The notes under the pieces: generated by a model
The model's input: only the letters and a program-made list of their open reading frames with translations
The model's database searches: none
Told to the model about the DNA's origin: nothing
Made by a program: the position numbers and the translations under genes
Part shown: positions 24,895-50,442 of the stretch, one piece after another
How positions within the stretch are numbered: the stretch's first letter is position 1
Layout: the number at the start of each line of letters is the position of its first letter
NCBI GenBank assembly: GCA_013041745.1
Contig: JABDRN010000028.1
Location: forward strand, 1-59,027
DNA from: Gammaproteobacteria bacterium
GTDB taxonomy: Bacteria > Pseudomonadota > Gammaproteobacteria > SZUA-229
Direction of reading: 5' to 3'
Length of the DNA stretch: 59,027 nt

Positions 24895-25656
24895 TCAGTA
24901 CCTGACAGCGGGCGTTTCTATAGCCAACCCATTAGAGCGAGACATTAGGTATAAGCCTAACTGTTCTATTTCCTTTGAATCCGTTGCAAAAGGTTCAGCT
25001 CTTAATAAAGTCATGCATTGCTGTATTCGCAGATGCAGGTTTGCCATCTCCCCTGTAGCAAGACGATAAGCTGGAAATCCATTCGCCTGCCCCTGACTTA
25101 TCTTCTGTCCTCGTATCATCTGCCCCGGATAAAAATCATGGCAGTGTTGACAGGACATATCGATTAAACCATAACGAGTAGTATAGAGTTTTTCACCTTC
25201 TTTAATCTCTTCTGCCACCGGTCCTTCCGTCTGTATATTTACTATCTCACCATGGGCACGATTTCGTACGAAGGTCTCTAAACTGATTAGATCTGGATGA
25301 TCTGTCTGTAGAGGGTTTTCTGTAATTGTCGCCTGACAATTTCTGATTCGCTTTTGCAGGGTTATAATCTCATTGGACCTGTTTCTATACATCGGATAAC
25401 GAGCAAGTCTCTTTTTATTGAACATCTCGCCTTCTTTACCGTGACAATCTGAGCAGGTTTTATCTGTTTCATATTTCTTATTGAATAACTCTTGTCCGCG
25501 ATCGACAGCTAGTAAACCTGGATTTGAAAAATCATCATCCTGCATAGTACGCGTTTCAGGTTTGATATATTCATAACCTGATACAGGCTCGGCATAGAGT
25601 TTAGTTGTTAATAATGCCAACAAAGCGATCAAAATTATTTTATTGTCTAACTTCAT
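24895..25656 (-). CDS. soxA: Diheme cytochrome SoxA
   Basis: 253 residues with a signal peptide (IILIALLALLTTKLYA). Two heme c motifs are visible, CSDCH at 68-72 and CQHCH at 169-173, so this is a diheme type. Cys107 (RIRNCQAT) is the likely ligand of heme 1. Cys214 in the diagnostic GFPAYRLATGEMANLHLRIQQC is the expected active-site (persulfide-bearing) cysteine ligand of heme 2. With SoxX it would attach thiosulfate oxidatively to SoxYZ in the periplasm. Its start overlaps the soxX stop by 4 nt. SoxYZ, SoxB and SoxCD are not in the window. Confidence 0.96.
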   Translation of the reverse strand: MKLDNKIILIALLALLTTKLYAEPVSGYEYIKPETRTMQDDDFSNPGLLAVDRGQELFNKKYETDKTCSDCHGKEGEMFNKKRLARYPMYRNRSNEIITLQKRIRNCQATITENPLQTDHPDLISLETFVRNRAHGEIVNIQTEGPVAEEIKEGEKLYTTRYGLIDMSCQHCHDFYPGQMIRGQKISQGQANGFPAYRLATGEMANLHLRIQQCMTLLRAEPFATDSKEIEQLGLYLMSRSNGLAIETPAVRY

Positions 25657-26135
25657 TTCAAAGTAACCAGATAGGCGATGACATCCTCAACCTGTTGCGC
25701 AGTTAAAAATGTCCTGCCTATATAATGTATACCAGGTCTATTGATCAAACCGGGATCACGGTAAAAACCCGGCATGATTGACATAGGGTTTATATTCCTC
25801 GTATCGACTACTCTCAGTCTAATAAAAGCTTCACTTTGCCGTGAGCCAATACCTGCTAATGGTGGTCCGATAGTGCCGTAAGCCTCTATTCCATCGATCG
25901 GCAGCTGGTGACAGGCGAGGCAATTGCCTTTACTGCCATCAGATGCGATTGCTTTACCTCTCTCCGCATTCCCGATGTACCCACACAACGGTTTTTCAAT
26001 TGCATAATCCTTCACTTCCCATTTACAATATTTTTCTTCTACTGTCATTATCGAGCCACTACTGGCATAAATGCTATTTATGTAAAACATTATTAAGAGA
26101 AATACGAAGTAATTAATTTTTTTTATCTTAATCAT
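25653..26135 (-). CDS. soxX: Monoheme cytochrome SoxX
   Basis: 160 residues with a signal peptide (YFVFLLIMFYINSIYAS). The heme c motif is CLACH at 72-76. The distal Met ligand is probably Met121 in SIMPGFY. YGTIGPPLAGIG and LTAQQVEDVIAYLVTLK are typical of SoxX. Extra cysteines Cys37 and Cys51 near the N-terminus may form a disulfide. It passes electrons from SoxA to small cytochromes c. The gene overlaps soxA and starts 11 nt after ubiD, so all three are probably cotranscribed. Confidence 0.95.
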   Translation of the reverse strand: MIKIKKINYFVFLLIMFYINSIYASSGSIMTVEEKYCKWEVKDYAIEKPLCGYIGNAERGKAIASDGSKGNCLACHQLPIDGIEAYGTIGPPLAGIGSRQSEAFIRLRVVDTRNINPMSIMPGFYRDPGLINRPGIHYIGRTFLTAQQVEDVIAYLVTLK

Positions 26136-27684: not shown

Positions 27685-30111
<2,427 letters not shown>

Positions 30112-30191: not shown

Positions 30192-31271
30192 TCATGTTTT
30201 ACATGTGATATCACCATGTTCCACGTGGAACAACCTACTGTCTGACCAGTCAGATAAACTAATCTGATCTTCCTCTATAGTTGTTAAAAACAACTGAATA
30301 TCCATCGATGATAATACAGATAAGATCATGCTTTTATGAGCTGCGTCTAATTCCGCAGCGAGATCATCATACAACAGCACACAAGATTTATTTTTTATCT
30401 GCGAAAAATGCATAGCCTGGGCAAGCCGCATCAGAGCTACCAATGTTTTCTGTTGACCTCTAGAAATGCATGTTTGTGCAGACTGATTATTTACTTTAAG
30501 TGAAATGTCAGCTCGATGCGGCCCGTAATAAGTGTATCCCTTTAATCGTTCCTTTTGTAGATTGCGGTCTAAAAGCTCAGATAATTCTACTTCTCTTGGC
30601 CATCCACGTTTGTATTCGATGGAGATATTATCATCAGGAAAAAACTGTTGTATTAAATCATTAAGGTAAGGCGAAAGATTATCAAAGTATTGAGACCTCA
30701 ACTGATCAATATGATTTGATGCAGTACATATTTCATTATTCCATAATTGGCAGACATCATTTTTCTGTTTAGATTTGAGCGCAGCATTTCGTTGACTCAA
30801 AGCTTTCTTGAAACGTTGCCAGGCTTGAAAAAAGCCGTGTTCCACGTGGAACACGCCCCAGTCAATAAACTGACGACGTTGAGATGGACTACCGGTTATT
30901 AATTTATAACTATCAGGATGTATCGCCAATACTGGGAATAATGCTGCTATGTCTGATACTCTTCGTACTGGTTTCTTATCGACGCGTATCTCGGATTTAT
31001 TTCTTGCTCTTCTTATTCCAATAGGTATTGTACTATTATCGCGAGTCTCTATTGATGCGACCAGTTGTAGATAGGAACTTTGCCTTGAAATCAGATCTGT
31101 AACATATTGGCTACGAAAAGATCTTATATGACTAAGGTAGTATATCGCTTCAAGAATACTCGTTTTTCCAGAAGCATTGTCACCCACTATCAGGTTAACG
31201 CCATTTATTGGTGTTAACTGGGTTTTATTCAGATTACGGAAATCTTTTATTTGCAGCTGTTTTAATAGCAT
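30192..31271 (-). CDS. recF: DNA replication and repair protein RecF
   Basis: 359 residues of the SMC-like ABC ATPase family. Walker A is GDNASGKTS at 30-38. The signature region CISRGQQKTLVALMRLAQAM and the Walker B segment VLLYDDLAAELDAAHK are clear. RecF loads RecA at gaps with RecO and RecR. Two perfect parS sites lie within the gene and are read in frame, each giving FHVEHG, once near residues 140-145 and once close to the C-terminus (see the parS entries). The protein ends only a few residues after the second site, so that tail may be dispensable. Confidence 0.98.
   Translation of the reverse strand: MLLKQLQIKDFRNLNKTQLTPINGVNLIVGDNASGKTSILEAIYYLSHIRSFRSQYVTDLISRQSSYLQLVASIETRDNSTIPIGIRRARNKSEIRVDKKPVRRVSDIAALFPVLAIHPDSYKLITGSPSQRRQFIDWGVFHVEHGFFQAWQRFKKALSQRNAALKSKQKNDVCQLWNNEICTASNHIDQLRSQYFDNLSPYLNDLIQQFFPDDNISIEYKRGWPREVELSELLDRNLQKERLKGYTYYGPHRADISLKVNNQSAQTCISRGQQKTLVALMRLAQAMHFSQIKNKSCVLLYDDLAAELDAAHKSMILSVLSSMDIQLFLTTIEEDQISLSDWSDSRLFHVEHGDITCKT
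30217..30232. promoter_or_regulatory. parS: parS centromere site 1 (ParB binding), inside the recF 3' end
   Basis: A perfect 16-bp palindrome TGTTCCACGTGGAACA, the form of parS used by Pseudomonas-type chromosomal ParABS. It lies 25 bp from the recF stop and encodes FHVEH in the recF frame. The cognate parA and parB are at 48.7-50.4 kb in this window. Confidence 0.93.
30838..30853. promoter_or_regulatory. parS: parS centromere site 2 (ParB binding), inside recF
   Basis: An identical perfect 16-bp palindrome TGTTCCACGTGGAACA, 621 bp from site 1, again in the frame giving FHVEHG within the RecF chain. Two exact copies in one gene cannot be chance (one perfect 16-mer is expected about once in 4 billion bases). 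ParB would nucleate here and spread over the origin region. Confidence 0.93.
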
Positions 31272-31325: not shown

Positions 31326-32426
31326 CTACAAACGCATTGGCATGATGACATATTTGCAATCTGCCTGATCAGGATAAGTGAGTAAAAAGCTACTATTTGA
31401 ATCTCGCAGAGAAGCCTGCACCATTTCAGAACCGGTAACATTTAACACATCAAGCATATAATTTACATTAAATCCAATCTCGATATTATCACCACTGTAG
31501 ACTACTTCCTGTTCGACATCTGCTTCTTCCTGGTCAGGATTTTGAGCCTGTAATTTAATCAGGTTCTTTTCGAGTATCAGTCGAATACCGCGATATTTTT
31601 CATTCGAAAGAATAGAAGCTCTTATCAAAGACTGTCTTAACTGATCACGGTCAGCAGTAATAACATTTTCGCCATCTGCTGGCATTACACGGTTATAGTC
31701 TGGAAAACGTCCATCGATTAGTTTTGAAGTAAGCCTTAGAGCATCAAATTCTACCTGTAGATGATTACTACCAAGAGTCATCTTGACTGATTCATCAGTA
31801 TCACTTAACAGGCGGACAAGCTCCAAGACACCCTTACGAGGTAGAATCACCTGTTTTATGTCATCGATATCAGCGTTAGTTTCCTTCTCACAATAGGCAA
31901 GTCGATGGCCATCAGTAGCTACCGCACGTAAGTTATTAGAACTGACTTCAAGCATCAAACCGTTAAGATAGTAACGAACGTCCTGTTGAGCCATAGCAAA
32001 TGCTGTTTTATCGATAAGATCGTGAAGAGTATTCTGAGTAATTTCAAACTCATATACACTATTTATTGCATCTAGTGCTGGAAAATCACTTGCAGGTAGT
32101 GTCGCTAATGAAAAACGACTTCTGCCAGATTGAACTAAGGCTTTATTGTCTTTAACGGTAAAGTTAATGATTGATTCATTTGGTAATGACTTACAGATAT
32201 CCAGTAGTTTCCTCGCAGGTACGGTAATTTCTCCAGGCTCATCTACAACCATAGATATTTGACTGATCAATTCTATTTCAAGGTCAGTAGCAGTAAGTGT
32301 TAATGAATTATCTGTGGCTCTTAATAAAACATTTGATAGTGCAGGCATCGTTTGTCTTTTTTCTACTGCACCGATGATTTGTTGAAGAGGATTAAGCAGA
32401 TTTTCCTTTTCGATTTGGAGTTTCAT
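31326..32426 (-). CDS. dnaN: DNA polymerase III beta sliding clamp
   Basis: 366 residues, the family length, with three clamp domains. The N-terminus MKLQIEKENLLNPLQQIIGAVEKRQTMPALSNVLL and C-terminus YVIMPMRL (hydrophobic pocket tail) are diagnostic. The inner blocks AVATDGHRLAYCE and LIDGRFPDYNRVMP are present. It encircles DNA and tethers polymerase III and many repair factors. The dnaA-dnaN spacer upstream carries the candidate oriC. Confidence 0.99.
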   Translation of the reverse strand: MKLQIEKENLLNPLQQIIGAVEKRQTMPALSNVLLRATDNSLTLTATDLEIELISQISMVVDEPGEITVPARKLLDICKSLPNESIINFTVKDNKALVQSGRSRFSLATLPASDFPALDAINSVYEFEITQNTLHDLIDKTAFAMAQQDVRYYLNGLMLEVSSNNLRAVATDGHRLAYCEKETNADIDDIKQVILPRKGVLELVRLLSDTDESVKMTLGSNHLQVEFDALRLTSKLIDGRFPDYNRVMPADGENVITADRDQLRQSLIRASILSNEKYRGIRLILEKNLIKLQAQNPDQEEADVEQEVVYSGDNIEIGFNVNYMLDVLNVTGSEMVQASLRDSNSSFLLTYPDQADCKYVIMPMRL

Positions 32427-32699: not shown

Positions 32700-34058
32700 T
32701 TAGTTACTCAAAATACGAATCATATTTTTATAATCTTCATTAATCTTATTGTCTGATTCTCTAAGCTCAGCAATTTTCCTGCAACCATGTAATACGGTCG
32801 TATGATCACGACCTCCAAATGCAGCGCCTATTTCAGGCAGACTATGATTAGTTAATTCTTTGGATAATGCCATCGCTAATTGTCGAGGCCGAGTGATAGA
32901 GCGACTACGGCGATTTGAATGTAGATCAGAAGTACGTATCTTGTAATACTCTGCGACCGTTTTTTGAATATTGTCGATGGTGATTGTACGCTCCTGAAGA
33001 GCAATCAGATCTCGTAACGCTTCCTTGGCAAACTCTAATGTGATCGGTGACGCAGTAAAATTAGCGGTTGCTAATACACGACGAAATGCGCCTTCTAGCT
33101 CACGGATGTTTGAACGAATGCGTTTAGCAATGAAAAAAGCGACTTCATTGGGTAATTCTATTTTTGATTCTTCAGCTTTTTTCTGAAGAATGGCCACCCG
33201 TGTCTCAAGTTCTGGAGTTTCTATGCATACCGGCAGTCCCCAACCAAAACGCGAACGGAGACGCTCTTCAAGTCCTTCAACTTCTTTCGGGTAACGATCA
33301 CAGCTCAGGATGATCTGACTGCCCTCTTCTAAAAGTGCATTAAATGTATGAAAAAACTCTTCCTGCGACCGCTCTTTACCAGCAAAGAACTGGATATCAT
33401 CGACCAGGATCGCATCCAATGAACGATAATGCTGTTTGAATGCATCTATCGCGTTGTGTTGTAATGCTTTAACCATGTGGCTGACGAATCGTTCTGAATG
33501 AATGTATGTGATTCTAGCGTTCGGCTTGTTCTGTAAGATCATGTTACCCACAGCGTGCATTAAGTGGGTCTTACCTAAACCGACGCCACCATAGAAAAAC
33601 AATGGGTTATATGCGCTGCCAGGGTTTTCAGCGACCTGTATGGATGCTGCTTTAGCGAGCTGGTTGGATTTACCTTCGACAAAATTATCAAAGGTAAATA
33701 GTGGGTTTAGATTGTGTTCAACAAAAGACTGATTGTTCTTCGGTCTATTATTGGTCATGAAAGACTCAGTCTTGACCGGTTCAGCGGGTTCAGGATCTTT
33801 AATTGGGCTTTTGTTCTGGCTGCCGATTTCAATATTTAACTGGATTGATTGTTCAGCATCCATATCGAGCAGGATGGACTGAATTTTTTCGTGAAAATTC
33901 TGTTTGACCCAATCTTGCACAAAACGATTTGGAGCCAGTAATTTTATCTGATTATTCTCTTCGATAACTTGAAGAGGACGAATCCAGGTATTTAGCTGTT
34001 GGTCGGAAAGTTCCTGTTCTAATCGGTGTAAGCAATTGGACCACATTGTTTTGCTCAC
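32700..34058 (-). CDS. dnaA: Chromosomal replication initiator DnaA
   Basis: 452 residues starting at the GTG 34056-34058, with a GAGAGG site nine bases upstream; E. coli dnaA also starts with GTG. Domain I (1-70, [26 protein letters not shown]) is followed by a flexible domain II to about 115. The AAA+ domain has Walker [11 protein letters not shown] near 157-166 and Walker [10 protein letters not shown]. The C-terminal DNA-binding domain has the signature [15 protein letters not shown]. It binds DnaA boxes and melts oriC. Confidence 0.99.
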
Positions 34059-40659: not shown

Positions 40660-41637
40660 TTATAAAGACTGATAATAAAGGTTCTGCGGGTGATTGGCCT
40701 GTGCAAAGAAGAACCATCGTTCGGCCATCAAGCCAATATACTGAACGATAAAAGCCAGCAAGAATAATATAAACATGTCAGTGGCAAGTGCACTTGTTAA
40801 TAGTGCGACAGGAACGACGAAGGCCAGTACCAGGAATATCCATTTAATACTCTTGAATAGTGAAGGTTTCGCGCCATGAAAATACTCACGGGTATTGAAT
40901 GAACCGCCCATTGAGCCCTGCGCCTTCTGTTTGATACTGGTGTGACGAATACCGATGGCAGAGCTCAGGTTAGATTTGTATTTTATGTTGTTGTTTCTGA
41001 TTAACGATGCTGAACGGGTGATAAAAGCAGCCACAGTAAGCACGATCGCCCAGCCGCCATAGAAATGTATCAGGTCAGATTCGACATAGGACGCGAAAGC
41101 CGTGCTCAATGCAAAGCCGGAGGCCATGCCGAGCAATACATAGTTAACCACGGTAAGGGGTGTCGCCCACTCCTGCAGGAACTTGACGCAGGCATAGATC
41201 ATCGCGGTGCAGATAAATAAAGCGAATGCCAGAACCATGTTGATGCCGCCTACAAATAAAGAAAGGTCGACGACGAGAGCATCACTCAAAGAAAACAGCA
41301 CCGGGTTCCAACCACTTATGTGAATCATCGAATAAATAAAAGTGGTACCCATAAACGCCGGTAATACTATTACCTCACGTGACAGCCACGAAGTTTTCCA
41401 TTTGGCAGCAGAGCGCCAGGCGCGCTCTGGACGGCCGAGGTGGAAGAAAGAAGAAAATAGTCCGCCGACTAAAAAAACCAGAGCGAGCAAACTGCCGTAG
41501 CCATAAAAGCCGGGTGAGTCCTGTACAGGTAATACTTTTATCACAGAATATAACTGGCCGGTATACAGGGCGAGAAATAATCCCTGGCCGACGCCGATCA
41601 AGGTGGTTAGAAAAATTACTGAAAAAGCAGGATGCAT
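40660..41637 (-). CDS. soeC: Sulfite dehydrogenase membrane anchor SoeC (DmsC family)
   Basis: 325 residues with about eight membrane helices. The DmsC-family block FHLGRPERAWRSAAKWKTSWLSREV is clear, with further helices GINMVLAFALFICTAMIYACVKFL and FLVLAFVVPVALLTSALAT. It would anchor the SoeAB module at the inner membrane and pass electrons to the quinone pool. It is last in the soeA-soeB-soeC order. The sulfite substrate is inferred from the cytoplasmic-type partner SoeA and the sox genes; a polysulfide or other sulfur-oxyanion reductase cannot be excluded from sequence alone. Confidence 0.85.
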   Translation of the reverse strand: MHPAFSVIFLTTLIGVGQGLFLALYTGQLYSVIKVLPVQDSPGFYGYGSLLALVFLVGGLFSSFFHLGRPERAWRSAAKWKTSWLSREVIVLPAFMGTTFIYSMIHISGWNPVLFSLSDALVVDLSLFVGGINMVLAFALFICTAMIYACVKFLQEWATPLTVVNYVLLGMASGFALSTAFASYVESDLIHFYGGWAIVLTVAAFITRSASLIRNNNIKYKSNLSSAIGIRHTSIKQKAQGSMGGSFNTREYFHGAKPSLFKSIKWIFLVLAFVVPVALLTSALATDMFILFLLAFIVQYIGLMAERWFFFAQANHPQNLYYQSL

Positions 41638-41696
41638 AATATTGTCTCTTTATGAAGGTACGCAAGACTTACCGATTAGTATGTGCACGGTGCTGC

Positions 41697-42428
41697 TTAC
41701 CAACTCATAATATCGTCTAGGGTTTGATCATCATCATCAGGCATAGGCAGCTGACGCTCTTTGTTGAGTGGATTATCAACGCGGGTAAGCTCATCGCGAT
41801 GTATCGTGATATTGGTCTTGCGTCGCGGCAGATAATGGTTGGCTGGTTTTGTGCCCCACTCCGGCATCAACTGATAGCCGCCATTATCACGTATCTGTTC
41901 TGATACGTTAGAATCTGGGTCATTGACGTCACCAAACAGGCGGGCACTGGTTGGGCAGGCAAGGACGCATGCTGGTTTACGTTCAGACTCAGGTAGTGTT
42001 TCGTCATAGATGCGGTCGACACATAAGGTACATTTTTTCATCACCTTCTGGTTCTCGTCGATCTCGCGTGCGCCATAAGGACATGCCCATGAACAATATT
42101 TACAGCCGATACATTTGTCGTAATCAACCAGAACGATACCGTCCAGTTCACGCTTGTAACTTGCACCAGTTGGACAGACTGGAACACACGGCGGCTCTTC
42201 ACAGTGCAGGCAACTTTTTGGGAAGTGTACGGTTTGTGTATTGGGAAACTCCCCTACTTCGAAGGTTTGAACACGGTTAAAAAAAGTACCGGTCGGATCC
42301 TTGTCGTATGGGTTGTAGTCTGACATGTATCCTGCTGTACCAGAAGTATTCCATTCCTTACAGCTGGTTACGCAGGCATGGCAGCCAACACAAACGTTTA
42401 AGTCGATAACTAAAGCAAGTTGTGTCAT
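41697..42428 (-). CDS. soeB: Sulfite dehydrogenase iron-sulfur subunit SoeB
   Basis: 243 residues of the DmsB/NrfC ferredoxin type, with four cysteine groups for four 4Fe-4S clusters: CVGCHACVTSC near the N-terminus, CLHCEEPPCVPVCPTGA, CIGCKYCSWACPYGA and CTLCVDRI with CVLACPTSA. There is no signal peptide, as expected for a cytoplasmic-facing enzyme. It relays electrons from the molybdenum subunit to SoeC. The gene starts 5 nt after soeA. Confidence 0.92.
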   Translation of the reverse strand: MTQLALVIDLNVCVGCHACVTSCKEWNTSGTAGYMSDYNPYDKDPTGTFFNRVQTFEVGEFPNTQTVHFPKSCLHCEEPPCVPVCPTGASYKRELDGIVLVDYDKCIGCKYCSWACPYGAREIDENQKVMKKCTLCVDRIYDETLPESERKPACVLACPTSARLFGDVNDPDSNVSEQIRDNGGYQLMPEWGTKPANHYLPRRKTNITIHRDELTRVDNPLNKERQLPMPDDDDQTLDDIMSW

Positions 42429-42433
42429 ATCAG

Positions 42434-45361
42434 TTACTCTGTCCTGTTAGCCTTGGTTCCGGCAAAATATTTTAACCAGCGGCCACTCATGAATTTATTA
42501 CGAGCTTTTGTGCCAGGTGTTGTTGCACCCGCTTTGAATTGAGGGTAAGTCTCCTCTGGCTCGTCAGCAGTAGCAGGGTAGATTTTCACGCGAACATCGT
42601 ACCAACCAGCCTGACCGGTTACCGGGTCAGAGTTAGACAGGTGCTCCCCTGCCTTGCTCGGCGGAAGTTCTTCGCTGATCAAGTGGTTCAATAAAAAGCC
42701 CTTCTTGGATTCATTAGCCTTTTTCTTCAGGCCCCATGTACCGCTGGCCTTACCGATAGCATTCCAGGTCCACACGGTACCAGGTTCTACGGCTTCAGAG
42801 TGACGGCACATACAGCGAACTTTGCCGTGCATCGACTCTACCCACATCCACTGCTCATCAGCGATGCCGGCAGCCTCTGCCGTTTTAGTATTTACGTACA
42901 GGTAGTTATGGGTGTGGATCTGACGTAACCAGGCATTCTGCGAATCCCAGGAGTGATACATCGCCATTGGCCGTTGCGTGATAGCGTTTAACGGGAATTG
43001 CTGCAGGTCTGTCTGCTGTGCCTCCAGGGTGTCGGAGTAAAACGGAAGCGGATCAAAATGCATATCGATCCGTTCGCGCAGGTGTTCCGGTGGCTGTTTG
43101 CCATCGGACTTGCCCTGTGCGGCGAGGCGAAACTTCTGTAACACCTCACTGTATATATGAATGTTGATGGGCTCGGCATAACGCGTCAGGCTATGGCGTT
43201 TGGCCCACTCCAGGTAGCCCTGGTTCCAGTTACGCATGTACTGGTATGACTTTGGTAGTTCATAGTGGTAGACGCAGTTGTTCTTTTCGTACATCTCCCA
43301 CTGGTTTGGGTTGGGCTCCCCTTTCATGAACTTCTCGCCGCCTTTGCCGCGCCAGCCAGCAAGGAAACCGATACCTGAATCTGGCGCCGTCTCATAATTA
43401 ATGATGAAGTCAGGATAGTTACGGTATTTTCTGCCGCCCTGCTGGTCGATAAAAGCCGGCAGTTTAAGCCGTGTGCCCAGCTCGATCAGGACTTCCTGGA
43501 AAGGCTTGCATTCCCCGGTCGGTGGCAATACGGGAATACGGACCGAGTCGACCGGTCCATCAAACTCCGAGATAGGACGGTCTAGCATCGACATCACGTC
43601 ATGGCGTTCCAGGTAAGTCGTGTCCGGCAGAACCAGGTCGGCGAAGGCGACCATCTCGGATTCGAAGGCATCACAGACGATCAGGAAAGGAATTTTGTAC
43701 TCGCCCTGCTCGTCTTTATCATTTAGCATGTTGCGCACTTCTTCCGTGTTCATGGTCGAGTTCCATGCCATGTTGGACATGAATATCATCATGGTGTCGA
43801 TCGAATAAGGATCGCCACGCCATGCGTTGGTGATCGCATTTTGCATCATGCCGTGTACAGCCAGAGGGTGCTCCCAGGAAAAGGCTTTGTCCAGGCGGAT
43901 GGGTTCACCATCGTCATCAACGAAAAGATCATCCGGGTCAGCTGGCCAGCCTAGCGGCATACCATTCAACGGCGTATTCGGTTGTACATCATCCCAGCTG
44001 GTAGCCGTTTTTGCACATGGCGGAATCGGTCGTGGGAATGGTGCTTTATGTCGAAAACCACCAGGCCGGTCGATGGTGCCAAGGATACTCATCAGAATAG
44101 ACATGCCACGAATGGTCTGAAAGCCATTGGAATGTGCTGCCAGGCCGCGCATCGCATGGAAAGCCACCGGGTTGCCGGTGATATGGTCGTGTTCTTTACC
44201 CCATGTATCGGTCCATGATATGGGCAATTCGATTTTTTCATCACGTGCAGTAATGCCCATCTCATAGGCCAGGCGGCGGATGGTTTCGACGGGGATACCG
44301 GTGATGTCCGATGCCCATTCAGGTGTATAGTCCTTAACCCGGTCTACCAGAAGCTGGAATGCAGGTTTCACAGGTGTTCCATCATCGAGCTTAAATTCAC
44401 CTAGCAGATAAGGGTCGGAACCTTCGGTGTGCATGGAAATGGGCTTGTTCAGATCCCTGTCCCACCAGAGTTTGTTTTGCGCGTCGAAACAGCCCTCTTC
44501 TTTCGGAACTTCGAAGCGGACAAACATACCATGCTCAGAAGAGCTCTCGTCCATATTAACAAGTTCGGCGGAGTTCGTGTATTTTACAAGAAATTCGCGG
44601 TCATATAGACCCTGTTTGATGATCTCGTTTATCAGCGCGAGGAATAAGGCACCGTCTGTACCGGGCTTGATAGGTATCCATTCATCAGCTATACCGGCGT
44701 AACCGCTGCGTACCGGGTTGATGGCGATAAACTTGCCTCCCTGGCGCTTGAATTTGGCTAACTCGATCTTCATCGGGTTGGAGTGGTGGTCTTCAGCGGT
44801 ACCGATCATGATGAATAGCTTGGAGCGGTCAAGATCGGGTCCACCGAATTCCCAGAATGAGCCGCCGATAGTGTAGATCATGCCCGCCGCCATATTCACT
44901 GAGCAAAATCCGCCATGTGCTGCGTAGTTTGGAGTACCGTACTGTTTAGCAAACAGCCCGGTCATCGCCTGCATCTGGTCACGGCCAGTAAACAGGGCGA
45001 ATTTCTTGGGATCGGTCGCGCGGATTGATGCCAGGCGCTCTTCCATGATAGAGAAAGCTTCATCCCAGGAAATTTCTTCAAACTCGTTATCACCCCGCTT
45101 GCTCTTTGCCTTGCGCATCAGCGGTTTGGTAAGGCGTGCCGGGGAGTACTGCTTCATGATTCCAGATGCGCCCTTGGCACAGATCACGCCCTTGTTCAGT
45201 GGATGTTCCGGATTGCCCTGGATATATCGGACTTCCCCGTCACGCAAGGTAACGCGGATGCCACACCGGCAGGCACACATATAACAAGTCGTATTTTTGG
45301 TCTCTATACGACTATTTTCGTCAGTCGCTTTTGATGTCGGATTGTGTACCGGTTGAGACAT
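42434..45361 (-). CDS. soeA: Sulfite dehydrogenase molybdopterin subunit SoeA
   Basis: 975 residues of the DMSO reductase superfamily. The N-terminal 4Fe-4S motif is CYMCACRCGIRV with the fourth ligand in GVICAKGASG. Cofactor-binding blocks include ALFTGRDQMQAMTGLFAKQYGTPNY, RSKLFIMIGTAEDHHSNPM and the C-terminal MYHSWDSQNAWLRQIHTHNYLYVN. No twin-arginine signal precedes the cluster, so the subunit should stay in the cytoplasm, as SoeA of purple sulfur bacteria does. It would oxidise sulfite to sulfate. An AGGA site lies upstream of the ATG. Close relatives reduce polysulfide or tetrathionate, so the direction is inferred from context. Confidence 0.87.
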   Translation of the reverse strand: MSQPVHNPTSKATDENSRIETKNTTCYMCACRCGIRVTLRDGEVRYIQGNPEHPLNKGVICAKGASGIMKQYSPARLTKPLMRKAKSKRGDNEFEEISWDEAFSIMEERLASIRATDPKKFALFTGRDQMQAMTGLFAKQYGTPNYAAHGGFCSVNMAAGMIYTIGGSFWEFGGPDLDRSKLFIMIGTAEDHHSNPMKIELAKFKRQGGKFIAINPVRSGYAGIADEWIPIKPGTDGALFLALINEIIKQGLYDREFLVKYTNSAELVNMDESSSEHGMFVRFEVPKEEGCFDAQNKLWWDRDLNKPISMHTEGSDPYLLGEFKLDDGTPVKPAFQLLVDRVKDYTPEWASDITGIPVETIRRLAYEMGITARDEKIELPISWTDTWGKEHDHITGNPVAFHAMRGLAAHSNGFQTIRGMSILMSILGTIDRPGGFRHKAPFPRPIPPCAKTATSWDDVQPNTPLNGMPLGWPADPDDLFVDDDGEPIRLDKAFSWEHPLAVHGMMQNAITNAWRGDPYSIDTMMIFMSNMAWNSTMNTEEVRNMLNDKDEQGEYKIPFLIVCDAFESEMVAFADLVLPDTTYLERHDVMSMLDRPISEFDGPVDSVRIPVLPPTGECKPFQEVLIELGTRLKLPAFIDQQGGRKYRNYPDFIINYETAPDSGIGFLAGWRGKGGEKFMKGEPNPNQWEMYEKNNCVYHYELPKSYQYMRNWNQGYLEWAKRHSLTRYAEPINIHIYSEVLQKFRLAAQGKSDGKQPPEHLRERIDMHFDPLPFYSDTLEAQQTDLQQFPLNAITQRPMAMYHSWDSQNAWLRQIHTHNYLYVNTKTAEAAGIADEQWMWVESMHGKVRCMCRHSEAVEPGTVWTWNAIGKASGTWGLKKKANESKKGFLLNHLISEELPPSKAGEHLSNSDPVTGQAGWYDVRVKIYPATADEPEETYPQFKAGATTPGTKARNKFMSGRWLKYFAGTKANRTE

Positions 45362-48062: not shown

Positions 48063-48698
48063 TTGAAAGAGCCTTTACGCCAGCAGCTAGACTTTGGCCT
48101 CAGACAGATGGGGTTGCATTACTCGGTACCGGTGCAGCAGAAACTGGTGCACTATATCCAGCTGATCGCGCGCTGGAATAAAACCTTCAATCTGACAGCG
48201 ATCCGTGATGTCGAGGAGATGGTGAGCAAGCACCTGCTCGATAGCCTGGTGGTGCAGCCTTACGTTGAGGGCAAGACGGTTCTGGATGTTGGCAGCGGTG
48301 CCGGCTTGCCTGGCATCCCATTTGCTATAACATCACCGGAAAAACGCTTTGTTCTCATCGACAGTAATGGTAAAAAAACACGTTTTTTGATGCAGGCAAA
48401 AATAGACCTGAAGCTGGACAACGTCGAAGTGATCCACCAGCGTGTGGAAGATTATCAACCCGTTGCCGATGGACATAGGATATACTTTGACGTTATAACG
48501 GCACGGGCCTATGCCACTACTGACGAAATATTAAGCAGTACAGCGCACCTGCAAGGCGATGACACCAGTATTCTGGTAATGCAAGGTAAGCTGGATGAGC
48601 GTATCGAAAGTGATCGCTACCAGATTGTAGGATCATATGTGCTTGAAGTATATGGCCTGGGTGCTGAGCGGCACCTACTGGAAATTAAGAAGATTTAG
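48063..48698 (+). CDS. rsmG: 16S rRNA (guanine527-N7)-methyltransferase RsmG
   Basis: 211 residues from a TTG codon; no ATG is available before residue 16, and the family N-terminus requires this upstream start. A GGA site is about nine bases upstream. The SAM-binding motif is VLDVGSGAGLPGIPFAI, preceded by ARWNKTFNLTAIRD and KHLLDSL. It methylates G527 of 16S rRNA in the decoding centre. It sits in the conserved mnmG-rsmG-parA-parB order. Confidence 0.97.
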   Translation: MKEPLRQQLDFGLRQMGLHYSVPVQQKLVHYIQLIARWNKTFNLTAIRDVEEMVSKHLLDSLVVQPYVEGKTVLDVGSGAGLPGIPFAITSPEKRFVLIDSNGKKTRFLMQAKIDLKLDNVEVIHQRVEDYQPVADGHRIYFDVITARAYATTDEILSSTAHLQGDDTSILVMQGKLDERIESDRYQIVGSYVLEVYGLGAERHLLEIKKI

Positions 48699-48714
48699 TA
48701 AAATTGAAAGACAT

Positions 48715-49506
48715 ATGTCACGAATACTCGCATTAGCAAATCAGAAGGGTGGTGTTGGTAAGACGACTACCAGCGTTAACCTGGCAGCTTCTCTGGCTGC
48801 GACCAAGCGTAAAGTTCTACTGATAGATCTGGACCCGCAGGGTAACGCGACGATGGGTGTCGGCGTCGATAAAAATTCTCTGGAACACACCTTCTGCGAT
48901 TGTTTGCTCGATGGCCTGGATGCACATCAAGTTGTGCATCACATAGAGAATGCCGGTATAGACCTTTTGCCGGCGAATGCGGATATGACGGCCGCTGAAG
49001 TAGAGTTGATGCGAGCTGATAATGCAGAACAGCGGCTGAAGAATAGTATTGCCTCGATCGTCGATGAATATGACTATGTATTGATCGACTGCCCGCCAGC
49101 ATTGAATATGCTGACCCTGAACGCGCTGGTGGCTTCTGACGGTGTCATCATTCCGATGCAATGTGAATATTATGCGCTTGAGGGTCTTACAGCATTGATG
49201 GATACCATCGACCAGGTCCGTTCGTCAGTAAACCCGGGGCTGAAGATCGAGGGCCTGCTGCGGACCATGTTTGATCCGCGGAATACCCTGTCTAATGATG
49301 TGTCTGCCCAGCTGATAGAGCATTTCGGTGATCGTGTTTACCGTACCATCGTGCCACGTAACGTGAGACTGGCAGAAGCGCCGAGTTACGGCCTGCCGGC
49401 ACTGTTATATGAAAAAACCTCAAGAGGGGCGCTGGCCTACCTGGCACTGGCAGGCGAGATGTTGAGGCGGGAAACACGTACTAATGCCACGCCCGCTGCT
49501 GTCTGA
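48715..49506 (+). CDS. parA: Chromosome partitioning ATPase ParA
   Basis: 263 residues from the ATG 48715, which lies after the rsmG stop; an upstream frame start would overlap rsmG and is not needed. The deviant Walker A motif is KGGVGKTTTSVNLAASL near residue 10-26. DLDPQGNATMGVG and the VLIDCPPALNMLTLNAL Walker B region follow. ParA forms nucleoid-bound ATP dimers that pull ParB-parS complexes apart. Its cognate sites are the two parS copies in recF. Confidence 0.98.
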   Translation: MSRILALANQKGGVGKTTTSVNLAASLAATKRKVLLIDLDPQGNATMGVGVDKNSLEHTFCDCLLDGLDAHQVVHHIENAGIDLLPANADMTAAEVELMRADNAEQRLKNSIASIVDEYDYVLIDCPPALNMLTLNALVASDGVIIPMQCEYYALEGLTALMDTIDQVRSSVNPGLKIEGLLRTMFDPRNTLSNDVSAQLIEHFGDRVYRTIVPRNVRLAEAPSYGLPALLYEKTSRGALAYLALAGEMLRRETRTNATPAAV

Positions 49507-49536: not shown

Positions 49537-50442
49537 ATGATGACGGTTAAGAAAAAGGCGCCAAAGAAACAGGCAGCTAAGAAAAAAGGGCTGGGTCGAG
49601 GTTTGACGGCACTCCTGGGTAACAGCGATGTAGAGGCCATCATAGAAGCAAAAAGCGACGATGAGTTGCGCAACATCGATGTCGACCTGATAGAACGTGG
49701 CCCCTGGCAACCTCGCGAACACTTTGATGAAGAGGCCTTACAGGAGCTTGCAGATTCTATAGCGACACAGGGCGTGGTTCAGCCGATCGTTGTCAGGCAG
49801 CGCACGCAGGCGGGTGGCCAGGACAGGTATGAGATTGTTGCTGGTGAGCGTCGCTGGCGCGCCTGTCAGAGGGCAGGGTTGTCGCAGGTGCCGGCAGTAA
49901 TAAAAACGTTTGATGATCAGACAGCGGCCGCTGTGTCGTTGATAGAAAATATCCAGCGTGAAAATTTGAACCCTCTGGAAGAATCGACAGCGCTGAAGCG
50001 TCTGGTTGATGAGTTTGAGATGACGCATCAGCAGGTTGCTGATACTGTGGCACGTTCACGCGCTTCCGTCAGCAACCTGTTACGACTACAGGACCTGAAC
50101 CCGGATGTTAAAACGCTGCTGGCAATGCGAGATATCGAGATGGGGCATGCCCGGGCATTGCTCGCCATCGACGGTATGGAGCAGAGCAGTGTGGCAAAAG
50201 ATGTGGCCAGAAAAGGTCTATCGGTACGTGAGACCGAAACCCTTATTCGAAAAATCTGTGCGCCTGCAAAAAAGCCCAAGATTATTCGAAAAGACCCGGA
50301 TATCGTCAAGCTGGAAGAACGCCTGACCGAAAGCCTGGGCGCACAGGTGCGTATAAAGCAGAAAGCGAAAGGCAAGGGTAGCCTGGAGATTTCATACACC
50401 AGTCTTGATGTTCTGGATGGCATTTTAAGTAAGATCAGCTGA
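49537..50442 (+). CDS. parB: Chromosome partitioning protein ParB
   Basis: 301 residues. A basic N-terminal tail (KKKAPKKQAAKKKGLGRGLTALL) holds the ParA-interacting region. The CTP-binding ParB/Spo0J domain contains GPWQPREHFDEEAL and the GERR box in VAGERRWRACQRAGL. A helix-turn-helix (MTHQQVADTVARSRASVSNLLRL) reads parS, and a C-terminal dimerisation domain follows. The start could be either of the two adjacent ATG codons. It follows parA by 30 nt. Confidence 0.98.
   Translation: MMTVKKKAPKKQAAKKKGLGRGLTALLGNSDVEAIIEAKSDDELRNIDVDLIERGPWQPREHFDEEALQELADSIATQGVVQPIVVRQRTQAGGQDRYEIVAGERRWRACQRAGLSQVPAVIKTFDDQTAAAVSLIENIQRENLNPLEESTALKRLVDEFEMTHQQVADTVARSRASVSNLLRLQDLNPDVKTLLAMRDIEMGHARALLAIDGMEQSSVAKDVARKGLSVRETETLIRKICAPAKKPKIIRKDPDIVKLEERLTESLGAQVRIKQKAKGKGSLEISYTSLDVLDGILSKIS

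Follow-up and report, generated by a model that had tools for sequence, protein, structure and literature searches.

Bacteria pull their chromosomes apart by means of a DNA tag, parS. The window, that is, the whole 59,027-nucleotide stretch of gammaproteobacterial DNA analysed here, encodes dnaA-dnaN-recF-gyrB, in this order, on its minus strand, with mnmG-rsmG-parA-parB on the opposite, plus strand, and the exact 16-bp palindrome TGTTCCACGTGGAACA occurs twice within its recF (Table 1). The cumulative GC skew of the window bottoms at 30–33 kb, so that the two recF sites sit at the origin. Used as a query, the window ParA protein finds parA beside parB in L239. Elsewhere in the window, cytochrome c proteins like SoxA/SoxX (24895–26135) and a molybdopterin oxidoreductase operon with three subunits (40660–45361), both recognized by eye in the sequence, suggest that the source organism may be a sulfur oxidiser.

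Table 1. Features of the dnaA-gyrB and parAB loci (positions are those of the window).
Feature	Position	Strand	Place in RecF	Basis
parS site 1 (M1), TGTTCCACGTGGAACA	30838-30853	-	residues 141-145, FHVEH, internal	exact palindrome; class-wide conserved position
parS site 2 (M2), TGTTCCACGTGGAACA	30217-30232	-	residues 348-352, FHVEH, C-terminal strand	exact palindrome; class-wide conserved position
recF, host of both sites	30192-31271	-		ORF, 359 aa; TIGR00611, E=4e-108
gyrB, downstream neighbour	27685-30111	-		ORF; its protein served as tblastn reference
dnaN, upstream neighbour	31326-32426	-		ORF
dnaA, origin region	32700-34058	-		ORF; GC-skew minimum at 30-33 kb
parA	48637-49506	+		ORF, named from sequence; likely true start ~48715, MSRILALANQKGG
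parB, predicted binder of both sites	49537-50442	+		TIGR00180, E=9e-57, sole match in genome

Two parS palindromes in a common frame of recF

As an earlier note on this DNA had described, the two palindromes are perfect, lie 621 bp (207 codons) apart and, in a common frame, both encode FHVEHG, at RecF residues 141–146 and 348–353 of 359. The window contains no further site with up to three mismatches, 0.18 such matches being expected by chance from dinucleotide shuffles. The full-genome search that the note had proposed, carried out on the 2.97 Mb assembly (138 contigs, 95.7% complete), returned solely the two recF sites at 0 or 1 mismatch, and one site with two mismatches on a different contig. 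The note had also assigned the pair to the Pseudomonas type of parS, and the sequence is exactly that of P. aeruginosa parS2 and parS3 (parS1 and parS4 being TGTTCCACGTGGAACC; PMC4368675). Both palindromes fit the pattern TGTTNCACGTGNAACA and lie near the origin of a genome with parA and parB and, as in Pseudomonas, the two are within recF in the FHVE frame. With parA and parB present in the window and the lowest GC skew located at dnaA-recF, both palindromes are almost certainly chromosomal parS sites.

Nine of the ten P. aeruginosa parS fall in coding sequences, and silent mutations of parS1 and parS2 hit the third bases of a frame TG-TTC-CAC-GTG-GAA (PMC4368675). These two sites are located within recF (PA0003; PMC5521831), so that recF-embedded parS has already been reported, for one genus. 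The likeness to the window comprises an intragenic pair near oriC and the same 16-bp sequence, identical in parS2 whereas parS1 ends in CC, and the frame deduced from the published silent mutations equals that of the window. The two were compared by published recF location and frame, and RecF columns were compared in the sampled genomes described below, 101/150 of which have the core at both of the same columns. P. aeruginosa differs in having ten putative parS, with two more high-affinity ones outside recF, whereas in the window genome every site at 0 or 1 mismatch falls in recF. Generic chromosomal ParABS systems (parS TGTTNCACGTGNAACA) share with the window the palindrome, origin proximity and nearby ParA and ParB genes, but have parS in or near parAB, which here lies ~18 kb from the sites, across dnaA.

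Conservation of both sites in RecF across the class

An even draw from the window's class, at roughly one genome per family, gave 185 genomes; recF scored above the family cut-off in 154, and the recF DNA of 150, the window's own included, was analysed. In the RecF alignment, M1 and M2 read FHV[EK] in most genomes. The 14-bp core GTTYCACGTGRAAC was found at M1 and/or M2 in 134 of the 150 (both positions 101, M1 alone 21, M2 alone 12, neither 16), with a spacing of 606–669 bp (median 621) where both were present. Moreover, 149 of the 175 genome-wide TGTTNCACGTGNAACA sites in these 150 genomes are inside recF, and a reversed-pattern control gave zero sites in all 185. Most of the 16 genomes that have the core at neither position are ParB-bearing, from which parS sites would seem able to be moved or replaced. 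In the Vibrionaceae and kin, the recF sites are partly degraded, and all eight genomes tested were ParB-positive, matching the window ParB at 1e-66 or better.

Two further genomes show sites at new places. G142 has lost M2 and has a new in-frame parS (EVFHVKHGF; L247 4311–4326) elsewhere in its recF. In G145, M2 is decayed and three additional TGTTTCACGTGAAACA sites (L246 3194, 4369, 4925) lie between recF and gyrB; these extra sites are a putative instance of parS turnover inside the recF-gyrB interval.

The earlier note had supposed that FHVEHG was an insertion in RecF and that a C-terminal extension hosted the second copy. Neither idea survived alignment: the two motifs line up gap-free with E. 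coli RecF (CFHNEPG and MFTVEKG) and with RecF of the class, M2 being the normal C-terminal strand of the protein. A general RecF motif at M1 could likewise be dismissed, as FHVE is missing there both in the solved structures (Caldanaerobacter, Deinococcus, Thermus) and in the RecF of 20 genomes that belong to the phylum but not to the class. Those 20 proteins have DRLVLAVDP- or DWAIFSRER-like segments at M1 and a loose FxV at M2, and FHV[EK] thus belongs to the window's class. These facts bear in two ways on the possibility that FHVE serves RecF as a protein motif and that the palindrome merely follows from codon choice, with no function as DNA: the C-terminal strand often retains FxV outside the class, as a protein motif might, but M1 has no FHVE there.

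Codon constraint at the two sites

Codon choice also counts against a protein motif. With the codon usage of the window locus (TTC 0.20, CAC 0.20, GTG 0.14, GAA 0.69), an FHVE stretch would be written in the parS codons with a probability of 0.0039 at one site and ~1.5e-5 at both. For the class, we counted CAC-GTG-RAA given FHV[EK], with usage taken from the same locus, motifs excluded, and found these codons in 122 of 126 genomes at M1 (9.2 expected) and 114 of 121 at M2 (9.0 expected), a 12–13-fold excess over the prediction from local usage. GC content was ruled out as the driver, the effect persisting at GC3 below 0.4 (38/41 at M1 and 32/36 at M2, compared to 1.7 and 1.6 expected). When 82 conserved RecF columns were ranked by synonymous bias, the H, V and E codons of the two sites took six of the seven highest ranks, the remaining one going to a serine, whose score the AGY/TCN split may inflate.

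Correlated changes at the two sites

Silent and replacement changes also correlate between the two sites, again at odds with a protein motif. Non-canonical central hexamers co-occur (both sites 7, one only 4 and 4, neither 102; Fisher 2e-6, in statistics on genomes that are mostly one per family, shared ancestry being ignored). Thus, G097 (L134) has TGTTTCATATGAAACA twice, with centre CATATG, and G024 (L039) has TGTTCCACATGGAACA twice, with centre CACATG, both with Val to Met at both RecF places, and G166 (L073) has TGTTCCACGTAGAACA twice, with centre CACGTA. A broad degenerate pattern found no other matches in G166 and G024, and one further, dissimilar match in G097. The shared non-standard centres suggest that ParB specificity may have changed in these three genomes. 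The ParB of G024 has L in the recognition helix where most have K/R; this K/R-to-L change is the sole match between variant parS and recognition-helix changes, and is anecdotal.

Within M1, the wobble base of the Phe codon covaries with the first base of the E/K codon as the palindrome demands, all 16 K sites having TTT (p=4e-7, or 2e-7 after GC3 correction); the covariation is weaker at M2 (p=0.006, or 0.03 after correction).

parS persists where recF is lost

Among 25 ParB-positive genomes without recF above the cut-off, examined with the window proteins as tblastn reference, 16 carry TGTTNCACGTGNAAC. In 14 of the 16, parS lies where recF would be, namely in the short dnaN-gyrB gap (12 genomes) or beside gyrB on a fragment where dnaN was not seen (two). 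The exceptions among recF-less genomes are G107, with sites at mnmG/rsmG next to parAB, and G001. The recF-less relatives with parS between dnaN and gyrB (e.g. L237, L275, L276, L282) resemble the window in locus and in usually having two parS, and differ in that the sites have no host gene and are paired 26–43 bp apart rather than ~621 bp. In G117, which lacks recF, a tandem array of ~14 43-bp units with GTTTCACGTGAAAC, 12 of which fit the pattern exactly, precedes gyrB (L277 1244–1858); it is by all appearances a parS array. That parS remains in the dnaN-gyrB gap after recF loss is a further point against a protein motif.

Class-wide codon invariance, the paired V-to-M changes, the Phe wobble–E/K coupling and the persistence of parS without recF therefore support selection at the DNA level, rather than the protein level, as a force that shapes RecF codons and some residues. 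The proposal of the earlier note that a centromere has been accommodated inside a protein-coding gene gains support from the codon invariance and from parS outlasting recF.

Relaxation of the sites where ParB is lost

E. coli K-12 has GCTTTCACAACGAACC (FHNEP) at M1 and TGTTTACCGTGGAAAA (FTVEK) at M2. In 64 Enterobacteriaceae and kin, F-H-x-E is kept at M1 in every genome, as FHNE, while its His codon is at background (CAC in 37/64 versus 33.5 expected); at M2 some GTG/GAA bias remains (GTG in 48/64 versus 24 expected), which may reflect shared ancestry or a protein or RNA effect. A search with the window ParB in ten of the Enterobacteriaceae-and-kin genomes with M1/M2 data gave no match better than 5e-10. 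Similarly, G173 (L058; 1.0 Mb, one contig), in which no ParB was detectable, is a complete genome with the decayed sites TGTTCCATGCGGAACC and TGTTCCACGTAAAACG, whereas its ParB-bearing congener G027 retains TGTTTCACGTGGAACC and TGTTCCACGTGGAACA. Lineages without chromosomal ParB thus appear to lose the codon constraint, with the M2 bias partly remaining in Enterobacteriaceae.

The earlier note had held that its view would fail if the peptide were conserved in RecF of species lacking ParABS. F-H-x-E does persist at M1 in such species, with M1 codons that are unconstrained, which shows that the protein matters at this position as well; F, H and E at M1 are probably kept by the protein too. This persistence speaks for a protein motif, which on the whole of the evidence is nonetheless very improbable. 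The view in the note that RecF residues are set by DNA constraint accordingly stands in part: codon invariance, the paired V-to-M changes and parS without recF bear it out, and these three M1 residues probably answer to both.

Equally improbable is the idea that some other DNA-binding protein, such as a regulator of the dnaA-dnaN-recF-gyrB operon, recognizes the palindrome: it does lie in that operon, and surplus ParB lowers recF-gyrB expression in P. aeruginosa (PMC5521831), which makes a regulatory effect possible, but its sequence is identical to the published ParB-binding site (PMC4368675), a genome usually has about two of these palindromes, each next to the origin, and their presence tracks ParB, the strict site being found in 121/176 ParB-positive and 2/9 ParB-negative genomes of the class sample (p=0.007; ParB-negative genomes are scarce there, and two still have the site).

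Discussion

We conclude, with a probability of about 0.94, that the two recF palindromes are the chromosomal parS centromere, the sole such sites in the genome, bound by ParB for origin segregation, with selection fixing their codons, and ancient in the class. This reading draws together the sequences and positions of the sites, their codon constraint and correlated changes, their persistence after recF loss and their relaxation without ParB. Dimers of the window ParB would bind each palindrome and, as clamps, spread along dnaN-recF-gyrB near the origin, and bound ParB would let ParA draw new origins apart. recF could come to host parS because translation of TG-TTY-CAC-GTG-RAA-C gives F-H-V-E/K, a peptide that RecF would tolerate in two places, one internal and one in the C-terminal strand. 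The selective demand for ParB binding would then fix which codons are used and, to some extent, which residues: V at M1, the choice of E or K, and V to M where parS changed. Most simply, the recF arrangement would be ancient, both sites having been acquired by an early ancestor and kept by its descendants. With less assurance, we favour the broader view that the centromere of the class has its ancestral seat between dnaN and gyrB, with recF as its host; the DNA site would outrank the protein, RecF residues following parS (paired V to M, E/K switches) and parS outliving a deleted recF.

A recF-embedded parS pair is not unique, its kind having been reported in Pseudomonas, and the pair itself is ordinary; what appears new and unusual is the depth of its conservation and the strength of the DNA-over-protein constraint. 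We found no description of class-wide recF-embedded parS in the literature, in a search that did not cover the standard parS survey (Livny et al., 2007).

The locus would be a clear example of coding sequence that holds a chromosomal centromere and has kept it across a bacterial class. It offers a ready system for studying how the same bases can serve both a DNA site and a protein, with natural experiments in recF-less genomes, in lineages that lost ParB and in genomes with parS changed at both places. It also yields a simple prediction of where the centromere of an unstudied gammaproteobacterium would lie, in recF or the dnaN-gyrB gap, and a warning that deleting recF in such species would remove parS too.
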